This document shows, in pieces, positions 45,351 to 57,458 of a DNA stretch of 64,000 bases; position 1 is the first letter of the stretch; each line of letters starts with the position of its first letter. The notes under the pieces were generated by a model. The model had not been told where the DNA came from and did no database searches. It worked only from the letters and a program-made list of their open reading frames with translations. Source of the DNA: Methanobrevibacter ruminantium M1 (GTDB lineage: Archaea; Methanobacteriota; Methanobacteria; Methanobacteriales; Methanobacteriaceae); assembly GCF_000024185.1 (NCBI RefSeq), contig NC_013790.1, positions 2,417,001 to 2,481,000 of the forward strand, given 5' to 3'. A program made the position numbers and the translations under genes.

Positions 45351-45490
45351 ATAAAAATCCCCATAATCTTTCTATATAATATATAGTATTTTCATTAAAT
45401 AATATAAATTTTGTTAAAAAATTTTGAGAATAAATAAACTAGTGTGAAAATTAGAAATTTAAAATTAAATATTTGTTAAAAAATGTTAAA

Positions 45491-45687
45491 ATAAAATAAG
45501 ATAAAATAAGATAGAATAAGATAGAATAAGATAGAATAAGATAAAATAAGATAAGATAAGATAAAATAAGATAAGATAAGATAAATTAGATAAAATTAGA
45601 TAAAATAAGATAAAAAAAGATAAAAATGTTAAAAAAAAGTTAAAAATGTTAAAAAAAAGTTAAAAATGTTAAAAAAAAGTTAAAAAT
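45491..45687. repeat. Two adjoining AT-rich microsatellite-like arrays
   Basis: 45491-45620 is made of 10-bp and 5-bp variants of AAGATAAAAT; 45621-45687 is about three copies of the 20-bp TAAAAATGTTAAAAAAAAGT. They lie between the mtr terminator and the mmp14 start. Confidence 0.9.
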
Positions 45688-45713
45688 TTAAAAATATAAA
45701 AAGAAATAATTTG

Positions 45714-45746
45714 AAAAAAGATTAGATGAAATAAATCATCTAATCT
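45714..45746 (-). terminator. Terminator of the mtr operon
   Basis: Perfect 11-bp stem on the minus strand: AGATTAGATGA / TCATCTAATCT around a 6-base loop, followed at once by T6 (45714-45719 on the plus strand are A6). It starts 15 bp past the mtrH stop. Confidence 0.9.
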
Positions 45747-49800: not shown

Positions 49801-50673
49801 TTATTCCTCATATGGTCCGAATTTTGCTCTTGTAGACTTTTCAAGTAAGTAATTAGCAGCGATTAATAAAATAACGATGACAATACCTACAATTTGTCCT
49901 CCTAAAGCTCCGAATACAACAGTAATCCAGAAGCTTACGAAAACAATAAGTCCAAAACAGAATCCGGTTAAAGGTCCACCATATTTAGCACAGAAGTTAC
50001 CTACATCGATAGAGTTTTTAGCACCGAGAGGAGCTTTAGTTACGATATCCCCTTGAATCGCTACAGGAGTACCTCCACCGTAGTCGAATTTTTGGTATTC
50101 ACTTTCTGCACCATAATGAACATCCCCTGTGGATGATCCGATTGCACCAATAGTAATTCCCCAAAGTACAGCGAGTAATGGTAATGGGAATGGGTGTCCA
50201 AGTCCGTCTAATGGAAGAGTCATTAAATAAGCGATTCCTACAATACCGAAACTAGCTATAAAACCATGAGCTGCGATAGGGCCTAAGGATTGGGTTAATA
50301 CGTCCATAAATAATGGTTGTTCAAATTGAGATTGACCGACAATCCTTCCCATGTGTGATGTGACTGTATAAATTGCGTGAACAAGTGCAGCGACAGTAGA
50401 ACCCATTGCAATTGCCACTATAGGTATAATACCCATACCCATAGCAAGAGCTGCAATAGCACCGGAAATACCACACCAGCATCCGTATGCTACTGGTTCC
50501 CCAGAAGCTGCCTTATTTATCATACGGTGTAAGTGTCCCATTTGTGGAGCGAGCTGAACCTGAGAGTTAGGGTTACTTTGTGAACCGATGTCAGATTCTA
50601 AGTCCTCTGCAGCACCTGCAATGGTTGCTGCTGCACCCATCAATGCGACTACACCTAATGTAATAGGGTCCAT
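49801..50673 (-). CDS. mtrE: Tetrahydromethanopterin S-methyltransferase subunit E
   Basis: 290 residues, polytopic, first gene of the operon. Contributes, with MtrC and MtrD, to the sodium channel; an Asp in a membrane helix of this subunit has been proposed as sodium-binding. Visible marks are 'QMGHLHRMINKAASGEPVAYG' split across the first loop and 'GSSTGDVHYGAESEYQKFDYGG'. A GGAGGA ribosome-binding site lies before the ATG at 50673. Confidence 0.95.
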   Translation of the reverse strand: MDPITLGVVALMGAAATIAGAAEDLESDIGSQSNPNSQVQLAPQMGHLHRMINKAASGEPVAYGCWCGISGAIAALAMGMGIIPIVAIAMGSTVAALVHAIYTVTSHMGRIVGQSQFEQPLFMDVLTQSLGPIAAHGFIASFGIVGIAYLMTLPLDGLGHPFPLPLLAVLWGITIGAIGSSTGDVHYGAESEYQKFDYGGGTPVAIQGDIVTKAPLGAKNSIDVGNFCAKYGGPLTGFCFGLIVFVSFWITVVFGALGGQIVGIVIVILLIAANYLLEKSTRAKFGPYEE

Positions 50674-50726
50674 ATTTTCTTTTCCTCCTTAAATTTTATT
50701 AAATTTTAATTATTTAATAAATAAAT

Positions 50727-50759
50727 AAGTGATTAAAATTTCCCTTTTTTTAATCACTT
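50727..50759 (-). promoter_or_regulatory. Leader hairpin of the mtr operon
   Basis: Perfect 11-bp arms AAGTGATTAAA / TTTAATCACTT around an 11-base loop. It lies 54-86 bases before the mtrE start and is close to the T6-tailed hairpin upstream, so the two may be alternative or tandem elements. Confidence 0.55.
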
Positions 50760-50802
50760 TTAGACATATTCCAACTCAAATATAAAATACATAAAGACAA
50801 CT

Positions 50803-50849
50803 AAAAAACGGCCTAAATAATGGACTAAAAAATAATCATTATTTAGACC
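50803..50849 (-). terminator. Terminator-like hairpin with T6 tail ahead of mtrE
   Basis: Minus strand: GGTCTAAATAATG / CATTATTTAGGCC, 13 bp with one G-U pair and a 14-base loop (arms at 50837-50849 and 50810-50822), then CG-less-spaced T6 (50803-50808 are A6). The same form as the mtr terminator. It sits 130 bp before mtrE and about 850 bp past mcrA. Confidence 0.75.
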
Positions 50850-51700
50850 ATAATTAGAACATCCTATAGTAATTTTATACTTTATGATTATACTTCAAAA
50901 CTTAAACAAGATTTTTAAATCAAATAAGCCAAAGTAAACCACTCAGCTTTTAATCTAGCTAGATTAAATCCTTAGTTAGTTAAGAATGAAATATTTGATG
51001 AATAAATCTAAAAATCTTAATAATTAAACAACGAATAATTAAAAAGATAAATTTTGTGAAAAACTTATTTCAAATCTAAAAAGATCACACGAATCAAATC
51101 TGAAATAGCATTTCATGTATAAAATTTGCAATTTTTGCAATATGTGAAAAATCGCAAATCAAGTTTATTTTAATAAAAATAAACTCTAAATTAATTGTTT
51201 TTGAGACAATTTAATGCCTCTAATTAATATTTTATTTTAAACTACATATATAAGTTTTACTAAAAAATCTCGAATTTTATCCATTATTTTTAGCAATGCC
51301 TAACAATTTAAGCGATTAATCAAAATTAATTGAATACATGTCAATTAAATTGAAGAAGTTTTTTCCCAAATTTGCTTTTAAAATAGTGAATAAAATAATG
51401 TCGAATTTGTAAATAAATTTTTTAATAAAAACCATTTCTTAATTAATAAATAAATGAATATAAATATAATATTTTTAAATTAAAATGAAATTTATAAGTT
51501 TCAAAAATGTTTGAAAAAAAATCCATTCTAATTTATACAAACAAATTTTTTTATTGAAAAAAATAAATAAGGTAAAACGGATTATTTCAATGGAATAAAC
51601 CAATGAAAAGATTTTATGGAAAAACAATTCCAATAAAATCAATTCATTATGAAACAATCAGTTAAAAACCTTATTTATATAATTCCCGTTTACACCAAAC

Positions 51701-55305: not shown

Positions 55306-56637
55306 TTAGATGTCACCTTTAATCTCAGCAGCTGCTAAAGCAACATATTTGAGTGGTTCTCTGAATTCGTCAATCTCACTGTATACCTCTTTAATTAAAC
55401 CAGAAGTTGCTTCTGGAGAGAAGAGTTGGGTACCAGCATCTAAAGCCATACCAGCAGCTACACAAGGGATGGTAAATCCTTTACTGTGTCTGGTTACTAC
55501 GTGGTTACCGTTGAATAAACCAGGACCTCCTCCACCATAGATAGAGTGAGAGAAGAAAGAGAATCCAACAGCTACACCTTCAGCTCTACCGAAGTCAATA
55601 CCAGGTAAACCGGTAGCGAATTCGATGTTGTCGTTGAAGTATAAAATAGTAGATGGAATACCTTGAGCAGCTCTTGCTGCACCTACGTTAACCATAATAG
55701 CAGCAGTACATCCAGCAGCAGCGTATGCGTTCCATTTAGCTGCATCGTTGGTTGCGTACATGTTGTAGTCGGTTAATTCTTTTTCTACAGCGATAACACC
55801 ATCAGCTTCAGCTTTAGCAATGGTGTCTTGTACGATAGAACCTACGGTTCCTTCTTTTGCGTTGTCTTGTACGAGACCTAATACCATGTTGTCTGCGTTT
55901 AATCCTTGGTAAGCTAAACCTAATAAGTGCATTCTTTCGTATGCACCGACTGCGTCACCCATTTCAAACATAGCAGTTTGTTCAAAGATACTTGCAAGAG
56001 CAGTTGCTTGTAAAGTATTCTTTAAGGTAGCAGCTACGAAGTCGTTTGCTTTAATGTTTCTTAAAGAGTAACCTGGACCTTCTAATTTTTGTGGTACGTC
56101 TAACATGGTTTTTAAGTTGGATCCCATGTATTCTACAGATTGTGGGTATCTTCCTAAGATAGCAGCTTTTACCATGTTTGCGTCGTACATGCTTACGTCA
56201 AACTCTTTGATAATAGCTTGGGTTAATGCAGTTGCGGTAGCTAAGGTTGCTACGGAGTATTCTGCGGAAGAATCTAATCTGATAGTTGGAATTTGGACTA
56301 AAATCCTTTTTCCACCAGAGAGTATTTCACATTTAGTATCATCGTCTTCAGTTACTTGAAGCATTTCTTTTAAAGAAGCGTTAATGGAGTCAGCTTGAGC
56401 AACAATGTCAAGATCCATTTCTCTTCCTAAGATTTTAGATTTTGCTCCACCAACGGAAGCAGTTTTTAAAGATTTTTCGATACCTTCTAAGTTTACAGCT
56501 ACAGTTCTTTTAACACCGCTAATAATGTTCTTAATAGCAGGGTTACGTAACGGACTTAGAGCTTCGATTGGTACATCAGATTCGACTAATGAACCTCTGT
56601 CGTCGTATAAATCGACTTTATCATCAAACTTTGCCAA
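55306..56637 (-). CDS. mcrB: Methyl-coenzyme M reductase I subunit beta
   Basis: 443 residues, forms the active-site channel with alpha and gamma. '[20 protein letters not shown]' begins the protein; the coenzyme B contact region reads '[19 protein letters not shown]'. The start codon is TTG (56635-56637), directed by a strong GGAGGG 5 bases upstream, a detail that could mis-place a start in automatic calls. First gene of the operon. Confidence 0.97.
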
Positions 56638-57458
56638 TTTTTTCCCTCCTTAATAAATAGAGTTAATATACCTCTCAAAAAAAACTTTATGTTTTAAGTT
56701 TTTCATGAGTAAGCCATAAAGCAAGTTTTTGCAATAGCCAGCTATTTGGTATACAAATATTATTTTATTTTAAATATAATATAAACATTATTCTAAGAAT
56801 CAAATAGCAAAGTTTATAAGCAATAAACGATTCAAAATTTTTTATTATATTTGACTCAAAAAGTAATACTTTTCATTTTTAATTATAATTCTTGAATTGG
56901 AATAAAATAAGTGATTGATTAATATTTTATAAATTTAAAGTCCATAATTTGATTTCTCTAAATTATATCCCAGCATATTAGTCAAATAGGAAAAATACCC
57001 CTAATTTAAAAATGATGAAAAAAATCAAAAGTATTACTTTTAGGTTGATTTAAACTATTTTTTAAGGACATTAGAACAGTTATATATAAAATAAATATAA
57101 ATTAAAGTTTTTACTCAAAAAATAAGCAAAATTTAGTCTTAAACAAAAAATACAAGATAGTACCACCAGGAGAATTAAAAAAATAATACTTTCTATTAAT
57201 AAAAGAATTACAAAAAATAATATTTGAGAATAAATTAGTTTGAATATGGCTAAATTAATAATTTTTATGTATAAAAATAATACAAAAGAGCTAAAAAAAA
57301 TTTCATAAAATTTTGGGATTTTTGAAAAATTTGAAAAAATTGAAAAAATTAGAAAAAATAATGGTTTTCTTAAAAAAATGCTAAAAAAAATAAAGCTAAA
57401 AATAGTTAAAAAATGTTAAAAAAAGTTATAAATAGTTAAAAATTAAATTTTAGACATA
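56638..57458 (-). promoter_or_regulatory. mcr promoter and leader region
   Basis: A minus-strand TATA candidate, TTTATATTATATTTA, lies at about 56771-56785, which would start transcription near 56750 and give a leader of about 115 bases. A second candidate is CTTATAAAC at 56811-56820. The dyad AATAGC-CA-GCTATT (56733-56746) lies just downstream of the inferred start. Upstream to 57458 is AT-rich with A runs; no gene seen. Confidence 0.5.

Follow-up and report, generated by a model that had tools for sequence, protein, structure and literature searches.

Organization of the mcrA-mtrE spacer

The window analysed is a stretch of 64,000 nucleotides from the single-contig genome of Methanobrevibacter ruminantium M1 (2,937,203 bp). 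The end of mcrA (51701) and the start of mtrE (50673), both on the minus strand, are separated by a spacer of 1,027 nt; the intergenic G+C content of this region is 19%. Mtr is a sodium-pumping complex, responsible for the energy-conserving methyl transfer step of hydrogenotrophic methanogenesis; much rumen methane comes from the M. ruminantium clade, one of its main sources. The spacer is made of four layers: a terminator of the mcr operon, a promoter motif, a near-invariant block and a region containing the two hairpins marked in the initial annotation, here called hairpin 1 and hairpin 2. Outside the central structured part, the features are the following (window coordinates):

51557-51677, minus strand: mcr operon terminator directly 3' of mcrA, AAATAAGG...CCTTATTT followed by a T-run
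51248-51261, minus strand: very likely mtr promoter, BRE/TATA motif AGTAAAACTTATAT, conserved in 13/13 loci
50727-50759, minus strand: hairpin 2 (P_GGA), mtr-specific, with GGA in the loop, perfect over 12 bp
50695-50721, minus strand: P_SD, AU-rich hairpin directly before the Shine-Dalgarno sequence
50684-50690, minus strand: Shine-Dalgarno sequence AAGGAGG of mtrE
49801-50673, minus strand: mtrE, first gene of the mtr operon (mtrEDCBAFGH)

Thirteen genus-type loci were compared: mtrE is present in 12 of the 19 genomes of the genus, and one further locus (L017) lies on a genus-type contig carried by G057, a mixed bin assigned to another genus. Ten of these loci are close relatives, while L014, L015 and L016 represent the three deepest lineages of the genus set. 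In the family as a whole mtrE was found in 93 of 139 genomes, those lacking it being mostly incomplete assemblies. The mcrA-mtrE spacer measures 690-1,030 nt in all 13 genus-type loci and 133-612 nt in most other genera; in the deepest genera it is about 60 nt long, with the terminator hairpin and the Shine-Dalgarno sequence alone left. Literature searches yielded neither TSS nor Term-seq maps of Methanobrevibacter.

In all 13 genus genomes the mcr terminator keeps a run of 7-8 T no more than 230 nt from mcrA, with a variable stem interior. Further downstream, the motif AGTAAA[AG]CTTATAT is found in 13/13 genus genomes, 477-588 nt before the mtrE ATG; since similar motifs (e.g. AGTAAAACATTTATATT) precede mtrE by 150-190 nt in several genomes of other genera, 51261-51248 is very likely the mtr promoter. 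The mtr RNA would start at about 51225, some 25 nt after the motif. Of the two TATA boxes proposed initially, the one at about 51250 corresponds to this conserved promoter; the one at about 50875 (GTATAAAAT) is instead a foot of a long stem, whose other foot is a second TATA-like sequence at about 50785 (TTTTATAT), and the three deepest lineages keep neither. Downstream of the conserved promoter, near mtrE, no other promoter of its kind was found. The idea of a long and unusual mtr leader appears well founded: transcription from about 51250 would give a leader RNA of about 550 nt, with both hairpins inside.

Two further observations concern this upstream part. In other Methanobrevibacter genera an inverted repeat, CAAGTTTACTTG, stands just before the mtr TATA box (TCAAGTTTACTTGAAAAAATCCAAAACATTTATATT) upstream of mtrE (L018-L020, L022, L023, L028, L029 and others), and is sometimes repeated further down; it was not seen in the M. 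ruminantium clade and is possibly a regulator binding site. Segment 51061-51214 (minus strand) corresponds to an M1-specific portion of the leader of about 85-150 nt with its own hairpins (e.g. GATTTGCGATTTTT...AAAAATTGCAAATT); it is largely deleted in most relatives, and L009, L013 and L014 have different sequence or gaps.

A conserved domain in the predicted mtr leader

Hairpin 1 is the tip of one arm of an RNA domain of about 290 nt, spanning 51049-50759 on the minus strand. Lying downstream of the conserved promoter, the domain should therefore be part of the ~550-nt mtr 5' leader. Its parts, with secondary structures predicted by folding and comparison, are:

50877-51049, minus strand: near-invariant block of about 173 nt (5' strand of P1, S3, S4, S5)
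51014-51048, minus strand: S1 hairpin (AUCUU/AAGAU, UAAUUA/UAAUUA), 5' edge of the domain, 99% of cells paired
51000-51012, minus strand: 5' strand of P1, UUUAGAUUUAUUC, invariant in 13/13
50968-50987, minus strand: S3 hairpin, 98.8% of cells paired, U.G to U-A in L015 and L016
50949-50968, minus strand: S4 hairpin UUUAAUCUAGCUAGAUUAAA, invariant in all genomes
50884-50942, minus strand: S5 long hairpin GUGGUU...AAUCAU, with double changes
50778-50882, minus strand: long imperfect stem-loop of about 105 nt with hairpin 1 at its tip
50803-50849, minus strand: hairpin 1 (GGTCTAAATAATG/CATTATTTAGGCC, T6), from sequence and shuffles
50759-50771, minus strand: 3' strand of P1, GAAUAUGUCUAAA, GAATAT[AG]TCTA in 13/13 with variable neighbours

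Promoter, block, long stem and P1 occur in the same order in 13/13 genus genomes with mtrE, always between mcrA and mtrE and once per genome, so that the position between promoter and start codon of a single operon, which marks a structured leader, is conserved throughout. In the three deepest lineages the identity of the block to M1 is 0.77-0.80, compared with 0.63-0.68 at the four-fold sites of mtrE; for the other spacer segments upstream of 50790 it is 0.10-0.53. Genus restriction and single locus were assessed by BLAST, by an exact pattern over the GTDB r220 set and by a covariance model (R1). The latter gave a single match in each genus genome having mtrE, and its sole above-noise match in the rest of the family was the mixed bin G057; a match in G045 (E 0.025) is no better than expected by chance over 139 genomes. 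The domain was not found elsewhere in the family or away from mtrE among these 139 genomes, BLAST matches to the block at other sites being weak, short and AT-rich, and the single copy per genome excludes a mobile or repeated element.

Searches for known classes gave no assignment. The leader has no match among Rfam 15 covariance models, also at E up to 5, and no sense-strand small ORF (MtrI/MtrR-like) of at least 12 aa is shared in it. An antisense ORF of 13 aa that the genomes share is explained by the invariance of the block; in L015 and L016 it is interrupted. A C/D or H/ACA guide RNA was also discarded: the D-box-like CTGA is present only in some genomes (GCTGAG/GCTAAG/GCTTAG) and no C box is found on the sense strand.

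Independent folding of each of the 13 genomes returned the same architecture, with S1 followed by a P1 helix enclosing S3, S4, S5 and the long stem. In P1 the invariant UUUAGAUUUAUUC pairs with the equally invariant GAAUAU[GA]UCUAAA, which lies beyond hairpin 1; its only change is one-sided (G/A opposite U), and its mean pair probability ranges from 0.21 to 0.87 across genomes, being low in three (0.21-0.40). S5 contains double changes, U-A to C-G and A-U to U-A, and the only large deletion in the block, of about 40 nt in L009, removes exactly the apical part of S5. Independent folding favoured the GUGGUU...AAUCAU hairpin, which is longer, over a pairing initially assigned to S5, AAGCU/GGCUU. 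The folding energy of the long stem gives z = -7.3 against shuffles in M1 and from -3.4 to -9.5 in the 10 genomes tested, always more negative on the sense than on the antisense strand; for the whole M1 leader (552 nt) z is -7.75. The long-stem arm of the three deepest lineages no longer aligns with that of M1, and it still folds as one long stem-loop.

Covariation within the block is modest, because ten of the genomes are close relatives: two pairs have double changes, a number matched by 45/500 shuffles, and the covariation score is 0.040 compared with 0.030 +/- 0.003, reached by 4/500 shuffles. Pairing is conserved through sequence change in the turnover of the long stem, in the double changes of S5 and in the stem swaps of P_GGA; in the rest of the block this signal is weak. 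The comparison of sequences establishes the conserved position, strand, predicted fold and genus restriction of the leader domain.

Hairpin 2 was likewise confirmed at 50727-50759, and it belongs to a more widely distributed pair of elements. A GGA-loop hairpin, usually 77-112 nt before mtrE, was found in 33 of 59 upstream regions (0.6 expected), and an AU-rich hairpin directly before the Shine-Dalgarno sequence in 53/59 (10.7 expected). The form of P_GGA from another genus, ATTTTTRTATGGAAYAAAAAT, has 19 matches in 18/139 genomes, all just upstream of mtrE. Between genera the stem pairs interchange freely, with A(N)GGA or an A-rich GGA retained in the loop; on these comparative data P_GGA is an older mtr-specific element, whose stems covary and which precedes mtrE in two genera. 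The GGA loop is missing in L014, and both P_GGA and a typical P_SD in L015 and L016. The GGA-loop hairpin forms a tandem pair upstream of mtrE in G055:C111:804-896, and a second, partly matching copy is seen upstream of mtrE in L018. The P_GGA loop resembles both CsrA targets and the start of the Shine-Dalgarno sequence itself; as in CsrA/RsmA GGA hairpins, an A(N)GGA loop near the Shine-Dalgarno sequence is kept on a variable stem. Unlike that system, CsrA (PF02599) is absent from this genome, while control genomes give matches, and CsrA was discarded as the reader of the loop.

Hairpin 1, its T-run and the alternative explanations

Hairpin 1 can be read directly from the minus strand at 50803-50849: the arms GGTCTAAATAATG (50849-50837) and CATTATTTAGGCC (50822-50810, one G.U) are followed by a G and by T6 (50808-50803). 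The initial annotation had correctly recognized this stem and made it too short, as it has 13 bp and forms the tip of the ~105-nt stem-loop. Dinucleotide shuffling of the 1,027-nt region (300 replicates) gives an expectation of 0.023 per strand for stems of at least 13 pairs with at least 5 T in 6, and of 0.113 for stems of at least 11 pairs, of which two are observed; a chance origin of hairpin 1 is unlikely. The proposed likeness to the mtrH terminator also holds, the latter consisting of GATTAGATGA/TCATCTAATC and T6. After that terminator, at 45480-45714 of the minus strand, there is a long T-rich stretch with short repeat units TAACTTTTTTTTAACATTTT and TTATCTTATTC.

A stem followed by a U-run, as in intrinsic terminators, is present in M1 and broadly in the ten close genomes; the three deepest lineages have lost it. 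Counted over the 3' half of the long stem, the longest run of T has 6 residues in two and 5 in eight of the ten closest genomes, and only 3, 4 and 3 in L014, L015 and L016. In the close relatives the U-run pairs inside the long stem (UAAAAAUGG/CCAUUUUUA) and a U.U or U.C mismatch interrupts the tip stem. Conservation in relatives, indicated at the outset as a check, gave a divided answer, with the terminator features lost in the deepest lineages and the stem kept. The mcr terminator, in contrast, never has fewer than 7 T; stem persistence with loss of the T-run indicates that selection maintains the stem and not a terminator. The T6 is considered not to be the purpose of the leader domain, and some premature termination there in M1 is possible.

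These data bear on the three roles initially suggested for hairpin 1. As an attenuator, it would gate mtr expression by stopping polymerase at the T6 (50803) unless the leader refolds; the 13-bp stem with T6 in M1, designed like the mtrH terminator, the U5-6 run in ten genomes and the location downstream of a structured domain are in keeping with this. Moreover, archaeal transcription can terminate at U-tracts alone, with no hairpin needed (PMC7515710, PMC2253867), which makes attenuation mechanistically feasible, and it was therefore retained among the alternatives. However, the three deepest genomes keep domain and long stem with only 3-4 T, the U-run is base-paired within the stem in close relatives, and no competing anti-terminator was found: the single alternative partner examined for the 5' strand of P1, AAUCAUAAAG, has a pair probability of 0.00 in 13/13 genomes. 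Attenuation is accordingly judged quite unlikely. Slightly better placed, and still unlikely, is an independent non-coding RNA of about 420 nt, running from the conserved promoter to the U-run at 50803, with mtr transcription beginning at a different start or reading through from mcr. A terminator-like hairpin with U5-6 would form its 3' end in the ten closest genomes, and the block is as highly conserved as in stand-alone RNAs; but no other promoter like the conserved one lies near mtrE, and mtr would therefore lose its transcript if the RNA ended at hairpin 1. In addition, the TATA-like sequences are stem feet that have disappeared from L014-L016, P1 closes beyond the U-run, at 50771-50759, and no copy occurs away from mtrE in 139 genomes.

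A remote terminator of the mcr operon, although on the same strand and downstream of mcrA, is rejected as practically without likelihood, because mcr has its own terminator directly after mcrA in all 13 genomes, and 850 nt and a promoter intervene. It is also very improbable that the feature acts as DNA, as an operator or as curved AT-rich sequence with chance pairing: the low G+C content and S4, a perfect DNA palindrome, would suit such an explanation, while G.U-tolerant changes, the sense-strand bias of the folding energy, the double changes of S5 and the stem kept after sequence turnover point to RNA.

Proposed leader RNAs of the mtr and mcr operons

The best reading is a genus-specific structured leader that would control translation or stability of the mtr mRNA. 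Hairpin 1 is the apical part of the long stem in the ~290-nt domain of the ~550-nt mtrEDCBAFGH leader, which would most likely act in cis; as the tip of a larger conserved structure, the hairpin probably helps to set the amount of enzyme rather than ending transcription. According to this model, the RNA starting about 25 nt after the promoter (51261-51248) would be continuous from 51225 into mtrE and would fold into S1, the multi-branch domain closed by P1 (S3, S4, S5 and long stem), the GGA-loop hairpin and the hairpin next to the Shine-Dalgarno sequence, a structure that comparison supports. Most likely, the domain and the two downstream hairpins would set ribosome entry at the mtrE start, protect the 5' end of the mRNA against decay, or both, possibly with the help of a putative protein that reads the GGA loop. 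The domain would have been added in the M. ruminantium clade between an old promoter and old hairpins, other genera being without it.

Long 5' UTRs are found in mRNAs of Methanosarcina mazei and Methanolobus psychrophilus, and in a cold-adaptive methanogen those of the mta transcripts contribute to transcript stability (PMC5378194). Like these mta leaders, the mtr leader is long, belongs to a core methanogenesis operon, has stem-loops close to the site of ribosome binding and is proposed to act on the stability or translation of its mRNA. It differs in operon and archaeal order and in having a defined, conserved ~290-nt domain, recognized by comparison rather than by RNA mapping; no common sequence is known between the two. 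Riboswitches and cis-regulatory leaders of Rfam likewise show an invariant core, a P1-closed multi-branch fold and hairpins next to the Shine-Dalgarno sequence; unlike riboswitches, the mtr leader matches no Rfam 15 family, occurs in one gene context of one genus, and has no demonstrated ligand or switch. With archaeal terminators (U-tract, aCPSF1-dependent; PMC7515710) it has in common the U6 after a stem in M1; unlike theirs, its U-run is not conserved and is buried in a longer stem.

A second structured RNA was identified in the mcr operon leader, 6 kb upstream of that of mtr:

56632-56762, minus strand: structured RNA directly before mcrB, in the mcr operon leader (L138-L183)

At E <= 0.001 a model (R2) built from nine genus genomes matches 82/151 genomes of the order, and at E <= 0.05 it matches 88/139 of the family (Methanobacteriaceae), almost always with a single copy in each; matches adjoin the mcrB start where positions were compared. 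Covariation is strong, with 63 double-change cells compared with 22 +/- 3 in shuffles and a score of 0.234 compared with 0.086 (0/500 shuffles). The predicted fold is a three-way junction with an invariant P1 (GUAUACC/GGUAUAU), a covarying P3 and a CUCU/AGGAG pairing that covers the Shine-Dalgarno sequence. No Rfam 15 match and, in a literature search, no description were found for this element, which seems to be a cis-regulatory RNA of mcr not described before.

In methanogens with limited genetic tools, little is known of how the level of core enzymes is controlled, and an undescribed conserved RNA domain ahead of mtr offers a testable handle on this. The locus also advises caution, since an isolated stem with a T-run in AT-rich archaeal leaders need not be a terminator. 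More tentatively, and with considerable doubt, the mtr leader domain may represent a new class of regulatory RNA, gating Mtr synthesis on sensing a signal from a metabolite or protein, beside the separate, family-wide RNA of the mcr leader; if so, the last two steps of methanogenesis would both be under RNA control in rumen Methanobrevibacter.
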